This document shows, one piece after another, positions 1,975 to 24,822 of a stretch of DNA of 44,218 nucleotides (positions are counted from its first letter, which is position 1; the number at the start of each line of letters is the position of its first letter). Under the pieces are notes generated by a model. It had not been told where the DNA came from and did not search any database. It saw only the letters and a list, made by a program, of their open reading frames with translations. Source of the stretch: a virus; the IMG/VR virus record IMGVR_UViG_3300009550_000024, positions 1 to 44,218 of that record; one strand, written 5' to 3'. The translations under genes and the position numbers were made by a program.

Positions 1975-2145
1975 ATGGGACAAAGTAAAAGAAATTACGA
2001 AAATTTAATTACAATGAATAGTCAGTCTTTTTATGACTATGAGTACTACAATTTAATACAATCAAATGACGAAAGAAGAAGCACTCCAAAAAATAGAAAA
2101 GGTAGTAGTAGAAAAGCTACAAGTACCAGCCGAGAGTCTATTTAA
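1975..2145 (+). CDS. Possible small Ser/Arg-rich protein (56 aa)
   Basis: The frame MGQSKRNYENLITMNSQSFY... continues into a Ser/Arg/Lys-rich tail (RKGSSRKATSTSRES). It fills the 1933-2065 gap but overlaps the start of the next gene by 80 nt. The low-complexity tail lies exactly in that overlap and may be only a shadow of the next gene. The N-terminal part has no competing gene. It is offered as possible only. Confidence 0.35.
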   Translation: MGQSKRNYENLITMNSQSFYDYEYYNLIQSNDERRSTPKNRKGSSRKATSTSRESI

Positions 2146-2368
2146 TAAATCCAAAAAGAGAAATCATATTGATGCAAGACAAATTTATTTCTATCTGTGT
2201 AAGGATAGAAATATAAGACCTTGTTACATCCAAGATTACATTTTTAGTGAGCACAATCATAAAATGGCTCATTCCAATATATTATATGGACAAGAGAAAA
2301 TTAAGAATGAAATGCGAGTAGATAGTGACTTAAGGAATCTTGTAAAAGAATTAAAATGTTCAGTATAG
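2066..2368 (+). CDS. Stand-alone DnaA domain IV-like DNA-binding protein
   Basis: Residues 20-97 follow the pattern of the C-terminal DnaA domain (domain IV, helix-turn-helix that binds DnaA boxes). ESLFNKSKKRNHIDARQIYFYL matches the 'R...v.aRqiamyL' helix region in two parts, and residues 62-79, starting EHNHKMAHS, occupy the place of the DnaA signature (DHxTVxxAxxKI). There is no AAA+ ATPase domain, since the protein is only 100 aa. It could recognise origin repeats or modulate host DnaA. It lies about 2.2 kb upstream of an iteron-like array and the primase-helicase. Assignment is by eye; the signature is degenerate (EH for DH). Confidence 0.62.
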   Translation: MTKEEALQKIEKVVVEKLQVPAESLFNKSKKRNHIDARQIYFYLCKDRNIRPCYIQDYIFSEHNHKMAHSNILYGQEKIKNEMRVDSDLRNLVKELKCSV

Positions 2369-2760: not shown

Positions 2761-3337
2761 AAAATTATCATCCATCAACGTAAATGAACACGTTGAGAAT
2801 AAAAATGGCTTGACCTATCTATCGTGGGCCTGGGCTTGGAGCGAAACTAAAAAGACGTGTCCTGATGCTACTTATACTATTTATGAGAATACAGATGGAT
2901 TATGTTACCATCACGATGGTAAAACGGCTTGGGTTAAAACAGGTGTTACGATTGGAGACATAGAGCTTATTGAATATCTTCCTGTTATGGATTATAGAAA
3001 CAAGTCAATTACAATAGATAAAATTACTTCCTTTGATGTTAATAAAAGTATTCAAAGAAGTTTAACTAAAGCTATAGCAAGACACGGATTAGGTCTTTAT
3101 ATATATGCAGGTGAAGATTTACCAGAGTCAGAGTCAAAGGCCTTAGTTCCTAGTAAAAAATCTACCAAGAAGGCTACTCAAAAAGCTAGTTTAGATCTTG
3201 GAGATGATAAGTGGGAAGATTGCCTAAAGTATGTAGTAGACAATAAACATCTAGGTTTTGATGGTGTAGTAAAAAGATTAAAGCAAAAGTATCAGTTAAC
3301 ATCAGAAGCTCTTAAAACAATCAAGACTTATGTTTAG
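2744..3337 (+). CDS. Single-strand annealing protein, Sak/DUF1071 family (Rad52 superfamily)
   Basis: The N-terminal 125 residues carry the DUF1071/Sak pattern: LTYLSWAWAW (23-32), EYLPVMDYRNKSI (77-89), and the core DVNKSIQRSLTKAIARHGLG (98-117), then LYIYAGEDLP. Such proteins coat ssDNA and anneal complementary strands in phage homologous recombination. A Lys-rich linker (about 135-150) leads to a C-terminal helical tail (about 155-197). The next gene is a RecE/Cas4-like nuclease, giving the usual exonuclease plus annealase pair. The stop overlaps the nuclease start by 8 nt. The family call is strong; the biochemical role is inferred from the family. Confidence 0.88.
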   Translation: MKNTFEKLSSINVNEHVENKNGLTYLSWAWAWSETKKTCPDATYTIYENTDGLCYHHDGKTAWVKTGVTIGDIELIEYLPVMDYRNKSITIDKITSFDVNKSIQRSLTKAIARHGLGLYIYAGEDLPESESKALVPSKKSTKKATQKASLDLGDDKWEDCLKYVVDNKHLGFDGVVKRLKQKYQLTSEALKTIKTYV

Positions 3338-4073
3338 TAAAGAAGAAACTTTATACAAATTACAAGAAGATAAAGAATACTATGGAGATTTTGGTAAACA
3401 GTTTTTATCTAACTCTGATATATACAGTTTATTAAATGATCCACGCTCTTTTAGAAAAGCTAAAGGAGAAACCAAACCTATGATAGAGGGTAGATACTTT
3501 CACGTATCTATGATAGAGCCACATAAAAAAGATGATTTTGTTATTATAGATTCAACATCAAGAAATACAAAAAACTATAAGAATCAAATACAAGAACACG
3601 GATTATCTATTGCTTTACTAAAGTCAGAAGCAGAACACATAGATAGTTTGGTTTCTGTTATGAAAAGTAATTTTAATTTTTATGAGTTTATATACAGTAA
3701 GTTTAATATGTATGAGGTTCCTGGGATTAAAACCATAAAAGGTGCTAATTGGAAAGGTAAAGCAGATATATTAGCATCAGATTATATTATTGATCTTAAA
3801 ACAACTTCTGACATATCTAAATTTAAGTACTCTGCCAAAAAGTATAATTATGATAGTCAGTCTTATATATACCAACAAATATTTGGTGTTCCAGTAGTTT
3901 TTTATGTAATAGACAAGAACACAAAGATGTTAGGTGTCTATGAGCCTACTGATTCTTTTATTCAAAGCGGAGAAGAAAAGGTAGAGAGAGCATTAGAGAT
4001 TTATAATAAATTCTTTAGTAAAGATGCGACGGAGAACATAGATGAGTTTTTCATCAAAGAAGAGCTTACCTAG
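3330..4073 (+). CDS. PD-(D/E)XK exonuclease (RecE/DUF3799-like)
   Basis: A recombination exonuclease expected to resect dsDNA ends and feed ssDNA to the neighbouring annealing protein. Visible features are the N-terminal SNSDIYSLLNDPRSFRK (27-43) and GRYFHVSMIEP (54-64), typical of RecE-like nucleases. The metal site is GKADILASDYIIDLKTT (143-159, with D146, D155 and K157), followed by QSYIY (177-181), the QxxxY motif of the Cas4/AddB/RecE group. Length (247 aa) is normal for phage members. It overlaps the annealase by 8 nt, so the two are probably co-translated. Confidence 0.85.
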   Translation: MFSKEETLYKLQEDKEYYGDFGKQFLSNSDIYSLLNDPRSFRKAKGETKPMIEGRYFHVSMIEPHKKDDFVIIDSTSRNTKNYKNQIQEHGLSIALLKSEAEHIDSLVSVMKSNFNFYEFIYSKFNMYEVPGIKTIKGANWKGKADILASDYIIDLKTTSDISKFKYSAKKYNYDSQSYIYQQIFGVPVVFYVIDKNTKMLGVYEPTDSFIQSGEEKVERALEIYNKFFSKDATENIDEFFIKEELT

Positions 4074-4121: not shown

Positions 4122-4364
4122 ATGAGCAAAGAGAAAGTTTTTGCTGATGGGTTTTTATTTAAAACTCGTGAAAATCAACCTGACTGGGTTGTTGGTTCAA
4201 TGGCAGTTAAAGTTGAGGATGCAGTAGTATTCTTAAAAGAAAACGCAAAAAATGGTTGGGTTAATTTAAATATTAACACATCTAAGTCTGGTAAACAATA
4301 TGTGGAGCTAGACACTTTTGAGCCTACTAAAAAGAAAGAAACAAAAGAAGAAGTTCCTTTCTAA
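4122..4364 (+). CDS. Putative small single-stranded DNA-binding protein
   Basis: An 80-aa protein with a beta-rich core (VFADGFLFKTRENQPDWVVG, ...GWVNLNINTSKSGKQYVELD) and a charged tail ending KEEVPF. Bacterial SSBs end in an acidic tip such as DDIPF that recruits partner proteins, and EEVPF closely resembles it. The gene lies between the exonuclease and the primase-helicase, exactly where phages keep an SSB. It is shorter than classical SSBs (over 110 aa), so it would be a minimal OB-fold or an analogue. The call rests on tail and context, not on a confirmed OB fold. Confidence 0.6.
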   Translation: MSKEKVFADGFLFKTRENQPDWVVGSMAVKVEDAVVFLKENAKNGWVNLNINTSKSGKQYVELDTFEPTKKKETKEEVPF

Positions 4365-4549
4365 ATTTATAAATGTGACGGAAATGACGATTTTTTTAAA
4401 ATATTTTGTAATAAACTTCATAGGGTATACTATACTATTCTTTTTATTATTTTTTCTTATTAAAATCGTCAAAACCGTCATAAATATATATAAATAACTA
4501 TATATCAATAAGTTAGATAAAATTAAATCGTCACAAAATCGTCACAAAT
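4365..4549 (+). other. AT-rich intergenic region, candidate replication origin
   Basis: This is the longest gap of the left arm, about 185 nt before the primase-helicase. It holds inverted copies of the repeat core (TGACG at 4376-4380, TGACGA at 4385-4390), a very AT-rich stretch (4391-4465) containing TATACTATAC, two direct cores (TCGTCA 4466-4471, CCGTCA 4475-4480) and then the tandem array at 4525-4568. AT-rich DNA beside iterated repeats and next to the replicative helicase-primase gene is the classical look of an origin. No TAnnTTTG promoter box is seen. Confidence 0.5.
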
Positions 4550-4568
4550 ATGTCACAAAACGTCATAA
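4525..4568 (+). repeat. Tandem 11-bp iteron-like array
   Basis: Two perfect units AAATCGTCACA (4525-4535 and 4536-4546) are followed by AATATGTCACA (4547-4557) and a degenerate AAACGTCATA (from 4558). The period is 11, 11, then 10 bp, about one helical turn, so bound proteins would sit on one face. The array covers the start codon of the primase-helicase (ATG at 4550). Looser copies in both orientations occur upstream to 4376. It may be an initiator-binding site or an operator controlling the downstream gene. Confidence 0.7.
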
Positions 4569-6955
4569 CAATATTTAAAAACATAAAGGACACCACCCAG
4601 CCTTTTCATTTGCCAGTAAATGACATTATAGATAGAATAAGAGATGGTCGTTCTCAGGACTTGATAAAAAAGATCAGAACCGAGAAAGATAAGAAAAAAA
4701 TAAACGAATTAAAACAACAACTACCTGCTATTTGTTTTAGTGGTAAGTTTAATAAAAGGAATGATGATTCGATTTTAGAGCATAGTGGTTTGATATGTTT
4801 GGACTTTGATAAGTATGACAATCAAAAGAAACTACATCAGCATAGAGAAAAATTAATTAAGGATGAGTATGTTTATTGTGTTTTCATCTCTCCATCAGGA
4901 AAGGGGCTCAAGGTTTTAATCAGGGTCCCTTCTGATATTGATTTACACGTAAAATATTTTTTATCCCTGCAACAATACTTTGACTCACCTTTTTTTGATA
5001 GTACTTCTAAAAACATCTCAAGAGTATGTTATGAGAGTTATGATCCTATTGTTTACGTTAATGAAGAATCTTTATTGTGGGATAAAATAATAGATACACC
5101 TACCGCAATAGACAAAAAAGAAATTACCATACCGATTACCGATCAAACCAAGATTGTGGATATACTAGTTAAGTGGTGGGAGAAAAAGTATCCAATGAAT
5201 GAGGGACAAAGAAATCAAAATGCTTTTATATTAGCTTCATCATTTAATGACTTTGGTATTGAAAAGTCACTTGCAGAGTATGTACTAAATGGATTTCAGT
5301 CTCAAGATTTTAATTTAAATGAGATAAAAAGGACTATTGACTCTGCGTATGCCAATATATCTAATTTTGGAACAAGAGTTTATGAAGACTCAGACACATT
5401 GAATGCTATTAAATCAAATGTATTAAAAGGTAAGTCTAAGACAGATATCAAAAAATACTTTGAGGATATAGATGAGGAAGTTTTAGATAACGTCATTGAT
5501 AAAATCCAGGAGGAAGGTTTTGATAATAAGTTTTGGACCAAGAACAAAAAGGGTGTTATAAAAATATTTCATTTAAAATTTAAAATGTTTTTAGAAGATA
5601 ATGGTTTTTATAAATACAATCCAGAGGGTAGTAAAAACTATGTCTTTGTAAAGGTCACTAATAATTTAATAGATCACGCATCTGAAAAGCAGATTAAAGA
5701 TTTTATATTAAGGCATTTACTCACTGTTGATGATATAGAGGTGTATAATTATTTTGCTGAACACACTAAATATTTTAGAGAAGAATTTTTAACCTTATTA
5801 GATTCTATAGATGTATTCTTTATTGAAGACACCAAGAACGAGTCTTACATATATTATAAAAACTGTGCAGTTAAAATAACCAACGATACCGTAACACCAA
5901 TAGACTATATTGATTTAGGTGGTTACGTTTGGAAAGACCACGTTATTGATAGAGATTACACAGACTGCGAGTCTATTGAGTGTGATTACAAAAAATTTGT
6001 ATCTAATATATGTGCTAAAGATGACAAAAGAATAGAGTCTACTGAAAGTACTATAGGTTATTTAATGCACGGTTATAAGAATTTATCTTACTGCCCAGCA
6101 GTGATTTTAAATGATGAGGTAATTAGTGATAATCCAGAAGGAGGAACGGGTAAGGGTTTATTTATGAATGCTTTACAACATATGAAAAAATTAGTAGTTA
6201 TTGATGGAAAAGGATTCAACTTTGAAAAATCTTTTGCTTATCAATTAGTATCAGCAGATACTCAAATACTTTGTTTTGATGATGTTAGAAAACACTTTGA
6301 CTTTGAGAGATTGTTTAGTGTGATTACTGAAGGATTAACCTTAGAGAAGAAAAATAAAGATGCTATTAAGATACCTTTTAAAAAGTCACCAAAGGTAGCT
6401 ATCACTACTAACTATGCAATAAAAGGAAAGGGTAACTCTTTTGAAAGAAGGAAGTGGGAGTTAGAATTAAATCAATATTATAATAAGTCATTCACTCCAT
6501 ATGATGAGTTTGGTAAGTTGATGTTTGGTGACTGGAGTGCTGATGAGTGGTGTAGGTTTGATAACTATATGATATATTGCCTACAGTTTTATATGAATAA
6601 AGGATTAGTTAAAAGCTCTTTTGTTAATCTTAAGATACGTCAGTTATCTGCTGAAACTTGTCACGAATTTATTGAATGGTGTGGTTTATTAGACGGGAAG
6701 AGTCCTAATGAAGATTTTGACAATGGTCATAAAATATATAAACAAGAATTATATATGGATTTTATTTCTGAGAATCCAGACTTTGCTCCAAAAGCCAAAA
6801 TGACTGTTTCTAGAACTAAGTTTTATCAATGGCTAAACTCTTACGCAGTATTTAAAACAGGAGTTAGTCCTGATGAGGGTAAGGATATGAAAGGAAAGTG
6901 GATAAGAATAAGAAGTAAACACGAAGCAGAATATAATAGTAAATTAGATATATGA
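4550..6955 (+). CDS. Primase-helicase: BT4734-like/AEP N-terminus plus SF3 helicase
   Basis: An 801-aa replication protein. The N-terminus (about 1-180) matches BT4734-like/AEP primase domains: DFD at 85-87, SPSGKGLK at 114-121, and ISRVCYESYDP near 156-166. Residues about 195-275 (GQRNQNAFILASSFND...) look like a PriCT-type domain. The C-terminal part is a superfamily 3 helicase of the D5/DUF5906 type: Walker A NPEGGTGKG (about 528-536), Walker B ILCFDDVR (about 574-581), sensor-1 KVAITTNY and an arginine-finger segment SFERRKW (about 629-636). It should prime and unwind DNA at the phage origin. The stop forms an ATGA overlap with the next gene. Confidence 0.88.
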   Translation: MSQNVITIFKNIKDTTQPFHLPVNDIIDRIRDGRSQDLIKKIRTEKDKKKINELKQQLPAICFSGKFNKRNDDSILEHSGLICLDFDKYDNQKKLHQHREKLIKDEYVYCVFISPSGKGLKVLIRVPSDIDLHVKYFLSLQQYFDSPFFDSTSKNISRVCYESYDPIVYVNEESLLWDKIIDTPTAIDKKEITIPITDQTKIVDILVKWWEKKYPMNEGQRNQNAFILASSFNDFGIEKSLAEYVLNGFQSQDFNLNEIKRTIDSAYANISNFGTRVYEDSDTLNAIKSNVLKGKSKTDIKKYFEDIDEEVLDNVIDKIQEEGFDNKFWTKNKKGVIKIFHLKFKMFLEDNGFYKYNPEGSKNYVFVKVTNNLIDHASEKQIKDFILRHLLTVDDIEVYNYFAEHTKYFREEFLTLLDSIDVFFIEDTKNESYIYYKNCAVKITNDTVTPIDYIDLGGYVWKDHVIDRDYTDCESIECDYKKFVSNICAKDDKRIESTESTIGYLMHGYKNLSYCPAVILNDEVISDNPEGGTGKGLFMNALQHMKKLVVIDGKGFNFEKSFAYQLVSADTQILCFDDVRKHFDFERLFSVITEGLTLEKKNKDAIKIPFKKSPKVAITTNYAIKGKGNSFERRKWELELNQYYNKSFTPYDEFGKLMFGDWSADEWCRFDNYMIYCLQFYMNKGLVKSSFVNLKIRQLSAETCHEFIEWCGLLDGKSPNEDFDNGHKIYKQELYMDFISENPDFAPKAKMTVSRTKFYQWLNSYAVFKTGVSPDEGKDMKGKWIRIRSKHEAEYNSKLDI

Positions 6956-7197
6956 AAAGATTAACTGATCCAGATAGAATTCACCAAGCATTTATAAATA
7001 GTTATAAAATAATAGTAGAAGGAATGACTGTTGAAGATATTATAGATGAAATTGAATTTGATGTAGTTAATCTAGATATATTGTTTGCTCACGATCCAGA
7101 GTATCCTGATAATAAATATGTGATAGAGATGATGTTTGATTACTTTATGGACTTGGAAGATTATGAAAAGTGTTCTAAAATTCAAAAATTATTATGA
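6952..7197 (+). CDS. Hypothetical acidic protein (81 aa) between two helicases
   Basis: It is coupled by ATGA to both the primase-helicase (6952-6955) and the SF2 helicase (7194-7197). It is highly acidic (DDIIDEIEFDVVNLD, FDYFMDLEDYEKC) and predicted helical, with no enzymatic motif. Constant co-translation suggests it works with, or regulates, one of the two helicases. The specific role is unknown. Confidence 0.7.
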   Translation: MKRLTDPDRIHQAFINSYKIIVEGMTVEDIIDEIEFDVVNLDILFAHDPEYPDNKYVIEMMFDYFMDLEDYEKCSKIQKLL

Positions 7198-8441
7198 AGT
7201 TTAGAGATTATCAGATAAATATTATTAATAAAGGTTTAGATATATTAAATAGATATAAACTATTGTATCTATCTATGGAGGTTAGAACAGGAAAAACTTT
7301 AACTTCTTTAGGAATATGTAAGGAGCTTGACATTAATAATGTGTTATTCATAACTAAGAAAAAAGCCATTAGTAGTATTGAATCAGATTATAGTATGTTG
7401 AATCCTGGTTTCAATCTTCAAGTTATTAACTATGAAAGCTTACATAAAATAGGAACTTACGATTGGGATGTTATTATTTGTGATGAAGCACATTCTATTG
7501 CTGCTTTTCCTAAGCCTAGCAAAAGAGCTAAGAATGTCAAGGAGCTAGTTCAATCACACAATCCTTATTTAATATTAATGTCAGGGACACCTACTCCAGA
7601 GAGTTATTCTCAAATGTATCATCAAGTTTATGGAGCTAAATCCAATCCTTTTTACGATTGTAAAAACTTTTATAAGTTTGCTCACAGATATGTCAACGTA
7701 ACTAAAAAGAAAATAAATGGTTATGACATCAATGATTACAGTAAGGGCAAGCAAGAGATTATAGATTTGATGAAGCCATATACTTTGTCTTATACTCAGC
7801 AACAAGCAGGGTTTAAATCAAAAGTAGACGAAGAGGTTTTATTAGTAAAAATTGACGAAAAAGTTCAAGAAATTACAAAAATCTTACAAAAAGACAAGGT
7901 TTTTGAGATAAATGGAGAATTTATACTTGGCGATACACCAGTAAAATTAATGAGTAAAATTCATCAGTTATGTAGTGGTACAGTTAAGTTTGAGAGTGGC
8001 ACCTCAACGGTTTTAGATTTAAGTAAAGCTAAGTTTATAAAAGAAAAATTTAAAGGAATAAAGATTGGTATTTTTTATAAGTTTCAAGCAGAGTTAAAAG
8101 CATTGAAAGAAGTGTTTGGAGAAAATTTATGTACTACTTTAGATGAGTTTGACAGTACAGATAAAAACATTGCATTACAAATTGTAAGTGGTCGAGAAGG
8201 AATATCACTAAGAAATGCCAAGTATTTAGTATATTACAATATTGACTTTAGTGCTACTAGTTATTGGCAGAGCCGTGATCGTATGACTACTAAAGATAGG
8301 TTGTATAATAAAATATATTGGGTTTTTTCTGAGAAAGGTATTGAGAAGATGATATACAAAGCAGTAAATAATAAAAAAGATTATACGTTAAGACATTTTA
8401 AAAGAGATTATGAATCAATTCAATCTAGTATACCATTTTAA
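7194..8441 (+). CDS. SF2 DEAD/SNF2-like DNA helicase
   Basis: A 415-aa ATP-dependent helicase or translocase. Motifs visible are the Q-like N-terminus FRDYQINII (3-11), Walker A MEVRTGKTL (28-36, K34), Walker B/DEAH IICDEAHS (94-101), motif III LMSGTP (128-133), and C-terminal motifs SGREGISL and YWQSRDR (about 363-370, motif VI Arg). The spacing is typical of phage SNF2/DEAD helicases. In phages these act in replication restart, branch migration or origin opening. It follows the SF3 primase-helicase in one coupled operon. Confidence 0.88.
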   Translation: MKFRDYQINIINKGLDILNRYKLLYLSMEVRTGKTLTSLGICKELDINNVLFITKKKAISSIESDYSMLNPGFNLQVINYESLHKIGTYDWDVIICDEAHSIAAFPKPSKRAKNVKELVQSHNPYLILMSGTPTPESYSQMYHQVYGAKSNPFYDCKNFYKFAHRYVNVTKKKINGYDINDYSKGKQEIIDLMKPYTLSYTQQQAGFKSKVDEEVLLVKIDEKVQEITKILQKDKVFEINGEFILGDTPVKLMSKIHQLCSGTVKFESGTSTVLDLSKAKFIKEKFKGIKIGIFYKFQAELKALKEVFGENLCTTLDEFDSTDKNIALQIVSGREGISLRNAKYLVYYNIDFSATSYWQSRDRMTTKDRLYNKIYWVFSEKGIEKMIYKAVNNKKDYTLRHFKRDYESIQSSIPF

Positions 8442-10444: not shown

Positions 10445-10602
10445 GACATCACGTCACATATGTCAACTTTATAACTAAAATGATTAATGACACTACTGAT
10501 GACATATATGAAAATTTAATGGACCAAAACCAAGACAACGTCAATAAATCTTGCAAAAATTTAATTAAAATACTAAATGAACTAATTGATCAGGAAGAAT
10601 AA
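10441..10602 (+). CDS. Hypothetical helical protein (53 aa), last gene of the plus arm
   Basis: GTG 10441 overlaps the preceding stop (GTGA) and opens a 53-aa frame, MRHHVTYVNFITKMINDTTD..., ending LNELIDQEE. It is helical and acidic toward the C-terminus, with a DDIYENLMDQN segment. The last 13 nt overlap the end of the convergent HNH gene. The pattern is consistent with small 'ITKMINDTTDDIYENL' proteins of related phages as I recall them; no function is known. Confidence 0.6.
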   Translation: MRHHVTYVNFITKMINDTTDDIYENLMDQNQDNVNKSCKNLIKILNELIDQEE

Positions 10603-10970
10603 TGTTCTTCTACGTGACATCTAGAGCAAAGAACTTTACATTTGTCTATTTCTTCTTGAAGTTTTTTAATAGACATTCCTCTGTGCACGCCATTACTAAC
10701 TTCAAATGATTTATTATTCTCAAAGTGGTGAAACTCAAGAGCTTGAGTGCAGAATTTAGGGTGTGTATCTTTAGAATACCCACAAGATTCACAAGACATT
10801 GTTTCTTTTAATTCTCTAAGCCACCTTTGGTTAACATACCTACGATGTCTTTTTTTTATCCCATAACATTTAGAGCATTGCTTACGTCTGTATCTCTTAC
10901 CGTTTTTAACTCCAGCAGATGGAAAATAATTATCGGGAAAGGATTGATTGCAGATATTGCAAGTGGTCAT
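10590..10970 (-). CDS. HNH endonuclease (homing-type)
   Basis: A 126-aa zinc-binding HNH nuclease. The N-terminus has CNIC (4-7) and CSKC (32-35), and the nuclease part has CESC (60-63), EFHH (79-82), N86 and the closing CSRCHVEEH (115-123), the usual HNH with its structural zinc. It cuts dsDNA and is commonly a free-standing homing endonuclease in phages. It is the last gene of the minus arm and runs into the plus arm (13-nt overlap). It may be a mobile insertion at the arm boundary. No intron is visible. Confidence 0.85.
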   Translation of the reverse strand: MTTCNICNQSFPDNYFPSAGVKNGKRYRRKQCSKCYGIKKRHRRYVNQRWLRELKETMSCESCGYSKDTHPKFCTQALEFHHFENNKSFEVSNGVHRGMSIKKLQEEIDKCKVLCSRCHVEEHYSS

Positions 10971-22700: not shown

Positions 22701-24822
22701 TTTCTCCATCTGATACTTTTTGAGCAGTTTCTCCTTCTAATAAACAGAAAAATTCAGTAGAGTCATTTTTATCAGGCTCAGCTCTAATAAAAAATAAAGT
22801 ATCATAATTTAATTTAGATGGCTTGATAGCAAACTTATAATACTTTGCCCAAGATGGTGGTTTTTGAGAAACTGGAATATTTACTTGGGCTTTATTAATT
22901 AATACAGAATTAGAAGCAGGTACATTAATACTACTATCTAAACTAACTAATGCAGTACTAGACCTAGCATAATCATCCATATAAACTATTGCTACATCAT
23001 AATCTCTATTACTGTGCAAACTTTCTTTACCTCTATTTGAACTAATAGTAAAGAAACTAGGATTAGTTTCAGGATCTGCAAATTCAAATCCTTCAAATGA
23101 CGTATTCCCAGTCTGCTCATAAACAGCCATTAAAGCTTGTAAACTTACTTCTGTTGGGCTGGTCATTGTAAACGCCTCTACAAATCCCGTTTGTCCTGTT
23201 GGATAAGAAGGAGCTGCAGGTGAAGCTGTAGCAACAGCAGCATTTGGAACGGCTGAATTAACTGCAGTTACACTTACACTAACTCCTCCTGCGGTGTTAA
23301 TAGCACTATTATTTAATAAATTACTATTAAATTGGTCTGTTGCTGTAACACCTGTAGCAGCACTAGTAAAAGTTTTAAAAGCAGGAGAGGGGTCAGTGCC
23401 TAATCCTGTTCCAATTAAATTTTTAAAATCATTACTACCTACAAATGAAGCCACATCAGCATAAGTATCTGTCAATTGAATAGTAGAAGTAATGGTAAAT
23501 GAAAAATCAGAAGACCTTGTTAAGTTTAATATTCCAGAGTTTCGATTATACATATTAGCACCACTAGATAAACTTGTAAAAGTAGCTGTAAAAGAAACAA
23601 AAGCTCCTTGGTTAAATTGTGTTAAACCAAAGTCATAAACTGCTTTTGATTTATCTACACTTATGGTACTAGCACTTGAACTACCATTAAGAACCTGATA
23701 GTCTGAAGATAGTAATTTACCTTGAATTTGATTAGGTATATTAACTAAACTAGTTACATAATCTAATTTAACATCTAACCCACTACTATCTTTCATATCA
23801 TATCCATCTACATAATTACCTAACATTAATCTGTTTCCAGATTGTGTCAAAGCCTTCGCTTTTAATGGAATGGCATCATAAAGTCTTGAAGATTCATTTG
23901 CTGAAAGAACACTAAATACTTCTTTATTTCTAAAAAATATAGATTGAGTAGTATTATCTGCCCATCCTAAATCTGATTTACTATATCTATCTATTACTTT
24001 AATTACTAAACTTGAACTTTCTTTATAACAAACTTCTATTTCTTTTACTAAAGAAGAACCTGTATTAAAAAAAACAGTGGCTGCATTATATGCATTAACC
24101 ATTGATTCATTTTTAATAGTATTAAAATCTATTTCTACAGGAATCTCATTTTTAGGCTCAAAAGCAGGTGAGCTAAATGGAGATAAAGCAGAGTACTCTC
24201 CATCTTCATATCTAAACCTGTATGCAAAAGAAATAAATTTATCTGTTAAAAAGCTTTGATCATCGTTATCAGCACTAGATAAAGTAAAGGTTGGTGGATT
24301 TATAGGTGGTTTTACTATTAATTTAATCTCATCTGCTGTTATTTGGTCTACACCACCAATAGGAAATGCGTAAGACCTATCTACATTTATTTTTCTAGGT
24401 GGATTTAAATTATCCGTAAATATTAAAAATCTATCTATTAATTCAACTCCTGTTATTAAATAACTAGGATTAAAATTAAGAATAGTAGTAGATATAATAT
24501 GATATATCGTAACAGAAGTTTTTACATTGAACGAAACAATTAAATCAACTACTCCAGGATCAGTAATAAACCAATAAATAGTTTCATCAGAATCATCTGC
24601 ATAAGAACCAATACAAAGTGCATTAGCACTCAATGCCACTCCTTGATTAGTAATATTGGTTAATAAAGTATTCCCTTTGGTATTCTCTAAAGTTCCAATC
24701 TCAGAATCTTCTGTGGAACCTAATCTAGCATTTAATGCATCTACATATTCTCCAGGAGGTAGTATCCTTTCGTCAGTAGACTTATTCATTACGCCTTTAA
24801 AGAATAAACTATTTAATTGCAT
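19741..24822 (-). CDS. Tail nozzle-like beta-propeller protein with long C-terminal extension (1693 aa)
   Basis: The N-terminus (MQLNSLFFKGVMNKSTDERILPP in two parts, then YVDALNARLGSTEDSEIG) and blade-like repeats (ETIYWFITDP, DRFLIFTDNLNPPRKINVD) resemble nozzle or stabilisation proteins of podoviruses. A second propeller-like stretch lies around NDLLVLQEDKVSYVLVN and YDKYFTDAKRGAVIKLSG (about residues 1215-1300). Beyond about 1350 the chain consists of Thr/Ser-rich beta-sandwiches and ends with a domain starting GSSGTYYLDAAVPSEATAVY. It is about twice the T7 nozzle length (gp12, about 794 aa), with inserted and appended adhesion-like domains. The nozzle role is inferred from fold pattern and position after the connectors. 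Confidence 0.65.
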   Translation of the reverse strand: MQLNSLFFKGVMNKSTDERILPPGEYVDALNARLGSTEDSEIGTLENTKGNTLLTNITNQGVALSANALCIGSYADDSDETIYWFITDPGVVDLIVSFNVKTSVTIYHIISTTILNFNPSYLITGVELIDRFLIFTDNLNPPRKINVDRSYAFPIGGVDQITADEIKLIVKPPINPPTFTLSSADNDDQSFLTDKFISFAYRFRYEDGEYSALSPFSSPAFEPKNEIPVEIDFNTIKNESMVNAYNAATVFFNTGSSLVKEIEVCYKESSSLVIKVIDRYSKSDLGWADNTTQSIFFRNKEVFSVLSANESSRLYDAIPLKAKALTQSGNRLMLGNYVDGYDMKDSSGLDVKLDYVTSLVNIPNQIQGKLLSSDYQVLNGSSSASTISVDKSKAVYDFGLTQFNQGAFVSFTATFTSLSSGANMYNRNSGILNLTRSSDFSFTITSTIQLTDTYADVASFVGSNDFKNLIGTGLGTDPSPAFKTFTSAATGVTATDQFNSNLLNNSAINTAGGVSVSVTAVNSAVPNAAVATASPAAPSYPTGQTGFVEAFTMTSPTEVSLQALMAVYEQTGNTSFEGFEFADPETNPSFFTISSNRGKESLHSNRDYDVAIVYMDDYARSSTALVSLDSSINVPASNSVLINKAQVNIPVSQKPPSWAKYYKFAIKPSKLNYDTLFFIRAEPDKNDSTEFFCLLEGETAQKVSDGEIYTVKADIDGPKSSYVEATCLEKTTNPNIDTASPSYPGPGPYAKFSPGNEYRINNPDLINEKSINKEKNALIPTRGIDAVTSLATGTNNPFSNTTISTGTDVTIKIKCERADDQPGAVLSNAALVQNLQTGFNNKENKNKFSNLIATRRADKDYSAGTLQANLNQMVIDQFTNASGFFSNDDISYGGNDGEKFRYKLDTITITNDNTPAIPNQDTSDYGVHIVSFDTKSSGGSTVQGIGVRSGFECRVNYITNGTSKVSIQVKISNIPDGLFVLETDGEDAADEIYYEGNQVFEITNDLHTGSVQNQNTWTFYDNAQNAAYRSSQALPASQFYGGNLALTSTGGTADNAPFEVGDTVNVQQTNLSPTNPQYNGLHTVLEKPDAKTIVLSVAFGSATPVEGGTVNADAIIVTNFFNCYAWGNGMESCKIQDSFKEDAVNIGERTYTLALSEFKQKRRNASITYSGVYNDETKLNRLNEFNLGILNFKDLNEDFGNIELLKARQNDLLVLQEDKVSYVLVNKNLLTTAAGQSDVTSTPTVLGKQITRLEEYGISHNPESYAEFGYDKYFTDAKRGAVIKLSGSSYSNESLEVISQAGMRSYFRDLFIADFNTQKIGGYDPYMNEYVLSSNNKTLPVDTQVVACGSELEFNNQTSSFTYTVNLGNSMGTTDIDYNVTSGNIDISVTYDGNSATSGSVTGLGTFQFSKNKPTVDTASITVSIIGTSANYSITVDCPDANVINVYQICINSEFTGLAPSIHNQYEWVSTSLTPTVSSPLINQPVTFTNVATGTGSGTQRVAQYQVYSSQVAVGTTPTPNAIITVKSAKTGSDTFDFNTNNGNRLLHLLSSTTYANTQTGINNLLTAAASNNLTISNTSTGVFEGSLTYTNTGTIPVSNLYLIYDYRTSTSVSLSFGSTESIVCGGSGSSGTYYLDAAVPSEATAVYNDAAMTVPAAAGYYLYVNPNPTVADTYWLRQDANGVIVQVSECSS

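Follow-up and report, generated by a model that had tools for sequence, protein, structure and literature searches.

What does a phage do with a protein that corresponds to the origin-binding domain of DnaA and to nothing else? The question is raised by a 100-aa product encoded at positions 2066 to 2368 (+ strand) of the viral record IMGVR_UViG_3300009550_000024, which was analyzed over its whole length of 44,218 nucleotides and is referred to below as the window. A sequence-only reading of the window had described the product as a DnaA domain IV protein without ATPase, and had suggested that it recruits replication to a nearby repeat array, competes with host DnaA or represses.

A DnaA domain IV without the AAA+ part

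The product (hereafter the DnaA-IV protein) matches the Bac_DnaA_C profile (PF08299) with 35.4 bits and an E value of 1.1e-8, above the Pfam gathering cut-off of 31.5 bits. Of the 69 profile positions, 2-41 are matched. The second half escapes the profile on account of five extra residues in the turn of the helix-turn-helix (four in most relatives): I55 and H69 are 14 residues apart, compared with nine between I425 and H434 in Escherichia coli DnaA. Other comparisons cover the remainder of the domain. Residues 4-97 align with DnaA 345-434 of 437 in NCBIfam TIGR00362, and a family profile built from 37 members finds only DnaA in the PDB, with alignments that span the entire domain of five DnaA structures and have a gap of four residues directly before the recognition helix. 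Moreover, all 37 relatives match Bac_DnaA_C at E ≤ 1.

The AF2 model (pLDDT 95.8, pTM 0.90) has helices at residues 3-18, 32-47, 52-63, 69-85, and 87-99. Foldseek ranks 1-7 in the PDB are all DnaA, and the Z scores against DnaA chains range from 10.4 to 14.8 in VIA, where the best unrelated fold reaches 5.8. The model superimposes over its full length on the DNA-binding domains of E. coli (1J1V; Z 14.8, 91 residues) and Mycobacterium tuberculosis DnaA (3PVP), with Z scores of 14.5-14.8 and an rmsd of 1.4 Å. Profile and fold thus agree with the sequence-only reading, and the product consists of DnaA domain IV alone. The gene is a coding gene under strong purifying selection: relative to six relatives, dN/dS is 0.02-0.04 (about 0.03), with substitutions mainly in third codon positions.

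For the AAA+ part of DnaA (PF00308), neither the window nor any of 25 related contigs (many of them 55-66 kb long) gives a match, while the same profile matches 13 of the 14 genomes used as controls. The window itself is a fragment of 44 kb, but its closest long relatives, of 59,161 and 58,833 bases, likewise have no PF00308 match and carry a single DnaA_C gene each. Since the ATPase was looked for and is absent, the product is not a DnaA initiator. Many other relatives encode a second DnaA_C protein, which the window and its near relatives (59 kb) lack. One such gene is at 24024-24593 of locus L012 (60107-60676 of the phage record MW202828), where the MW202828 protein is of the classical type with a DHSTI recognition helix, and second DnaA_C-like genes are found approximately 5-6 kb downstream of the PrimPol gene (see below) in L073, L080, L100, L108, L121, and L143-L146.

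The residues with which DnaA reads DNA are largely kept. R407 of E. coli DnaA, which we take to be a base-contact residue, corresponds to R38 in the window protein and is nearly invariant (R in 110 of 111 locus copies). The other base-contact positions follow published work (PMC5742627 and PMC5043019): R399 reads the 5′ TTA of the DnaA box, while the helix formed by residues 434-451 reads its 3′ part, TnCACA (PMC5742627). K30 is the equivalent of R399, and H69-S70-N71..Y74 of H434-T435-T436..H439. Among the 111 copies, 109 have K or R at 399, 101 have H at 434, 95 have S or T at 435, and 97 have H or Y at 439. The first residue of the DHTT..H signature, D433, is mostly lost (D in 9/111 copies). 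In the DnaA-IV relatives of L064-L066 the H-S-S recognition motif is lost (DQANISRSVES), and no array is present upstream of PrimPol.

With most of these residues retained and the ATPase absent, the protein could be dominant-negative, occupying DnaA boxes of the chromosome (TTATCCACA) in competition with host DnaA and thereby blocking or redirecting host initiation. The turn that is longer by 4-5 residues and the loss of D433 argue against such a role, and so do the fixed place of the gene inside a replication operon of the phage, away from the variable genes of host takeover, and the type of box in the phage arrays. Taken together, we regard this role as very improbable.

A conserved replication and recombination operon

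The DnaA-IV gene heads a compact module on the + strand. It overlaps the gene for a helper-like 134-aa protein with no assigned function (2356-2760), the model of which has a small β-sheet and two long helices. This gene adjoins the DnaA-IV gene in most loci, and its product could be a partner of the DnaA-IV protein; as a DNA binder in its own right it was set aside, since the model shows no obvious helix-turn-helix and lacks a convincing match in the PDB. Next are a Sak-type single-strand annealing protein (PF06378; 2744-3337) and a PD-(D/E)XK exonuclease-like protein (DUF3799; 3330-4073), both identified with Pfam, followed by a conserved 80-aa protein (4122-4364) that has an acidic C-terminal tail and no match in Pfam and is tentatively called SSB-like here. 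An 801-aa PrimPol-helicase-type replication protein (4550-6955; BT4734-like_N/VirE_N, PriCT_1, and DUF5906) and a SNF2/ResIII-type superfamily 2 helicase (7194-8441; Pfam) complete the module. The PrimPol part, which is related to the CRISPR-associated primase-polymerase type B, is combined with PriCT_1 and a helicase-like DUF5906 domain, and the gene lies at the array described below. Upstream of the module, a putative DNA cytosine methyltransferase gene (1014-1694) is shared with some relatives only.

A search of IMG/VR with the DnaA-IV gene gave 54 loci. In every locus with enough sequence, the genes run from DnaA-IV through the helper, the Sak annealing protein, the exonuclease, and the SSB-like protein to the PrimPol-helicase (VirE-like) and the helicase; the helper, Sak, and SSB-like genes are usually present, as is the helicase gene where the contig is long enough. 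The array, where present, lies between the SSB-like and PrimPol genes. As these loci had been found through the DnaA-IV gene, a reverse search was run from the PrimPol protein. Upstream sequence of more than 3.6 kb was available at 56 loci, and in 55 of these a DnaA-IV gene lies 1.8-3.8 kb upstream of PrimPol.

The family members are approximately 100 aa long throughout, and 34 of 37 match PHROG 16091, which is listed with unknown function. One public phage record, MW202828.1 (Podoviridae sp. ctfjg026), labels its own copy "dnaA" (51033-51335). This copy is 35% identical to the window protein and has the same length and gene order, with a VirE-like gene downstream; neither this entry nor PHROG 16091 describes a function or an origin. 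Among 84,980 species genomes, scanned with one short peptide pattern and hence with limited sensitivity, only three relatives were found, all in metagenome-assembled contigs. A prophage or cellular origin was rejected on this near-absence and on the absence of a tyrosine integrase from 15 records, a combination that fits lytic phages. The best partial PrimPol matches among cultured phages are from Flavobacterium-infecting phages (Elemovirus), in which an annotated 312-aa "replication initiation protein" adjoins the primase; two Elemovirus proteins tested gave no DnaA_C match.

The repeat array at the PrimPol start

The sequence-only reading had placed a repeat array at 4525-4568. The array is real, and its extent is larger than claimed, from 4376 to 4565. 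It begins with an inverted pair of CGTCA boxes on the − strand (4376-4389; sites 4376 and 4385, 9 bp apart), followed by an AT-rich stretch at 4390-4466 that is a candidate DNA-unwinding element. A direct pair of CGTCA boxes, again 9 bp apart, is on the + strand at 4467-4480 (sites 4467 and 4476). The direct repeats CGTCACAAA/TGTCACAAA/CGTCATAAC, 10-11 bp apart, cover 4529-4565 (CGTCA at 4529, 4540, and 4561; TGTCA at 4551) and overlap the start of the PrimPol gene. Between these two direct-repeat groups lies an IHF-like site, TATCAATAAGTTA (WATCARNNNNTTR), at 4503-4515 (+ strand). Seven of the 31 CGTCA/TGACG sites in the window fall within 190 bp at the array, compared with a maximum of three per 215 bp in simulated sequences (n = 60).

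Most relatives share this layout, with boxes that differ by lineage: CGACATAA, TCAACACAAA, GAGCACAAA, and, in one clade, perhaps TGGAATAA. In 89 nonredundant loci the repeat score of the array is 242, relative to 53.8 ± 9.4 in shuffles. Counted from the PrimPol start, the boxes across loci are at −190 to −160 on the − strand and at −90 to −70 and −30 to +10 on the + strand. The mean A+T content is 79% at −150 to −100 (87 loci), the most A+T-rich 60 bp mostly beginning at −160 to −120, and an IHF-like sequence separates the two + strand groups in 37 of the 89 loci (3.4 ± 1.8 expected). The common motif of the arrays is T-Y-G-W-C-A-Y-A-A-A, with 5.4 expected sites per locus. The relaxed core of the box is not unique to the array region in most loci, and whole-locus scans with loose pair rules or with the relaxed core were discarded as unspecific, clusters in coding sequence being matched too. 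In the clade of L096, L111, and L125 the recognition helix reads HNTIM and the repeats upstream of PrimPol are TTGGAATAA, not CGACATAA, which is possibly a joint change of protein and box. In L102 and L106, a tRNA-like sequence (judged by eye) lies between the SSB-like and PrimPol genes at the usual place of the array, and no array is found there.

Ordered repeat clusters, an AT-rich region, and a site for a bending protein are features of iteron and DnaA-box origins, and judged by its sequence the array is the best candidate for the phage origin. GC skew was dropped as an origin sign: it shows no step across the array, and the AT skew, which does differ, is confounded with gene content. A second, loose cluster of TGTCA/TGACA sites at 10452-10620 was put down to chance; most of it falls within coding sequence, close to where the early block ends, and its sites are only partly kept in relatives. 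Consensus DnaA boxes, including TTATNCACA, are absent from the window's array at zero or one mismatch, and TTWTNCACA occurs once in the array regions of all 89 loci. The earlier proposal that the protein competes with host DnaA finds no support in these counts.

Candidate readers of the array and a model for origin recognition

Which protein reads the array? The phages retain the DnaA recognition helix together with the CAYA part of the box; their candidate boxes are YGWCAYAA, unlike the classical TTATNCACA. Because both the contact residues and the CA(C/T)A half of the box are kept, the DnaA-IV protein is the best candidate. Covariation between box type (GACA, GTCA, or AACA) and protein columns, with PrimPol as control, gave a mean of 0.060 for the DnaA-IV helix-turn-helix and up to 0.356 for the best PrimPol columns. 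Since the DnaA-IV helix-turn-helix is not favored over the PrimPol protein, this comparison does not name a binder.

The strongest associations with box type thus fall on PrimPol columns, several around alignment columns 302-316, and one locus (L113) has the array and PrimPol without a DnaA-IV gene of the window type. These data would be expected if the PrimPol-helicase itself bound the array, as in iteron-type self-recognition, with the DnaA-IV protein binding something else. However, L058, L102, L106, L123, and L145 keep PrimPol with no array upstream (they carry the DnaA-IV gene, as do L064-L066, where the array is also missing), and Pfam recognizes no sequence-specific double-strand DNA-binding domain in PrimPol. 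We consider self-recognition improbable, slightly more so than the regulatory role discussed next.

The boxes overlap the PrimPol start codon, which makes repression by the DnaA-IV protein, as the sequence-only reading had suggested, possible. Many relatives also have a hairpin resembling an intrinsic terminator just ahead of the array, where transcription thus probably begins anew. In a stronger form of this reading, the main role of the protein at the array would be transcriptional regulation of the PrimPol-helicase operon, in autoregulation or in a switch from early expression to replication, and the origin would lie elsewhere. Yet the AT-rich center, the divergent groups of boxes, and the IHF-like site are typical of origins and exceed the needs of an operator, and the flanking genes are those of replication and recombination. 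A mainly regulatory role thus appears unlikely.

The account that we favor, and to which we give somewhat better than even chances, is that the DnaA-IV protein is a trans-acting origin-recognition factor for phage replication, reduced to DnaA domain IV. Its targets would be the short boxes, direct and inverted, of 4376-4565, which would represent a DnaA-derived site with the CA(C/T)A half of the classical box kept and the TTAT half lost. Several copies may assemble beside the AT-rich stretch, aided by an IHF- or HU-type bend between two groups of boxes. The resulting nucleoprotein complex would mark the origin and recruit the PrimPol-helicase, the natural motor encoded right at the array, which could provide the motor and primase functions otherwise supplied by the AAA+ part of DnaA and the host loader. 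Occupancy of the boxes probably also controls PrimPol expression, since they cover its start codon. Against the model stand the association values, which do not favor the DnaA-IV protein over PrimPol, locus L113 with its array but no such gene, the loci with the gene but no array upstream of PrimPol, the loss of D433, the unchanged GC skew, and the occurrence of the relaxed box core outside the array region in most loci. Of the earlier suggestion that replication is recruited to the array, the context stands (synteny and a conserved array with its AT-rich stretch and IHF-like site beside PrimPol), while the binding itself is something we infer.

The phage gene is a real, conserved, and well-defined variant, and the origin model is likely on the features of the locus. 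On a broader view, a widespread group of uncultured phages may use a two-part initiator, a free DnaA origin-reading domain and a PrimPol-helicase motor, in which recognition is uncoupled from the AAA+ ATPase and directed to a retargeted box, with the array conserved over divergent lineages; we hold this wider proposal to be plausible, at slightly less than even odds. If it is true, the origin-reading domain of DnaA works alone and in trans with a motor of another class, and the phages offer a small, testable system for separating origin recognition from duplex opening. Approximately 100 natural protein–array pairs would then be available for learning how changes in the DnaA fold alter the sequence that it targets, and PHROG 16091 would gain a likely function.

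No description of a stand-alone DnaA domain IV in phages was found in the open-licence papers searched. Automatic annotation of such genes is already known, as is the fusion of this domain to HuH nucleases. The layout resembles E. coli oriC, with its DnaA boxes, IHF site, and duplex-unwinding element (PMC5742627), in that groups of boxes flank an IHF-like site by an AT-rich stretch. Unlike at oriC, the boxes would be read by an ATPase-free protein without DnaA domains I-III, and the helicase would be the phage PrimPol-helicase instead of DnaB. In the subgroup 2.1.2 HuH endonucleases/transposases, a Bac_DnaA_C domain is fused to the HuH nuclease (PMC6006769). There, as in the phages, DnaA domain IV is reused in a mobile element, perhaps on a nonclassical target; the phage DnaA-IV protein differs in that it is not fused to another domain and is encoded in a replication operon.
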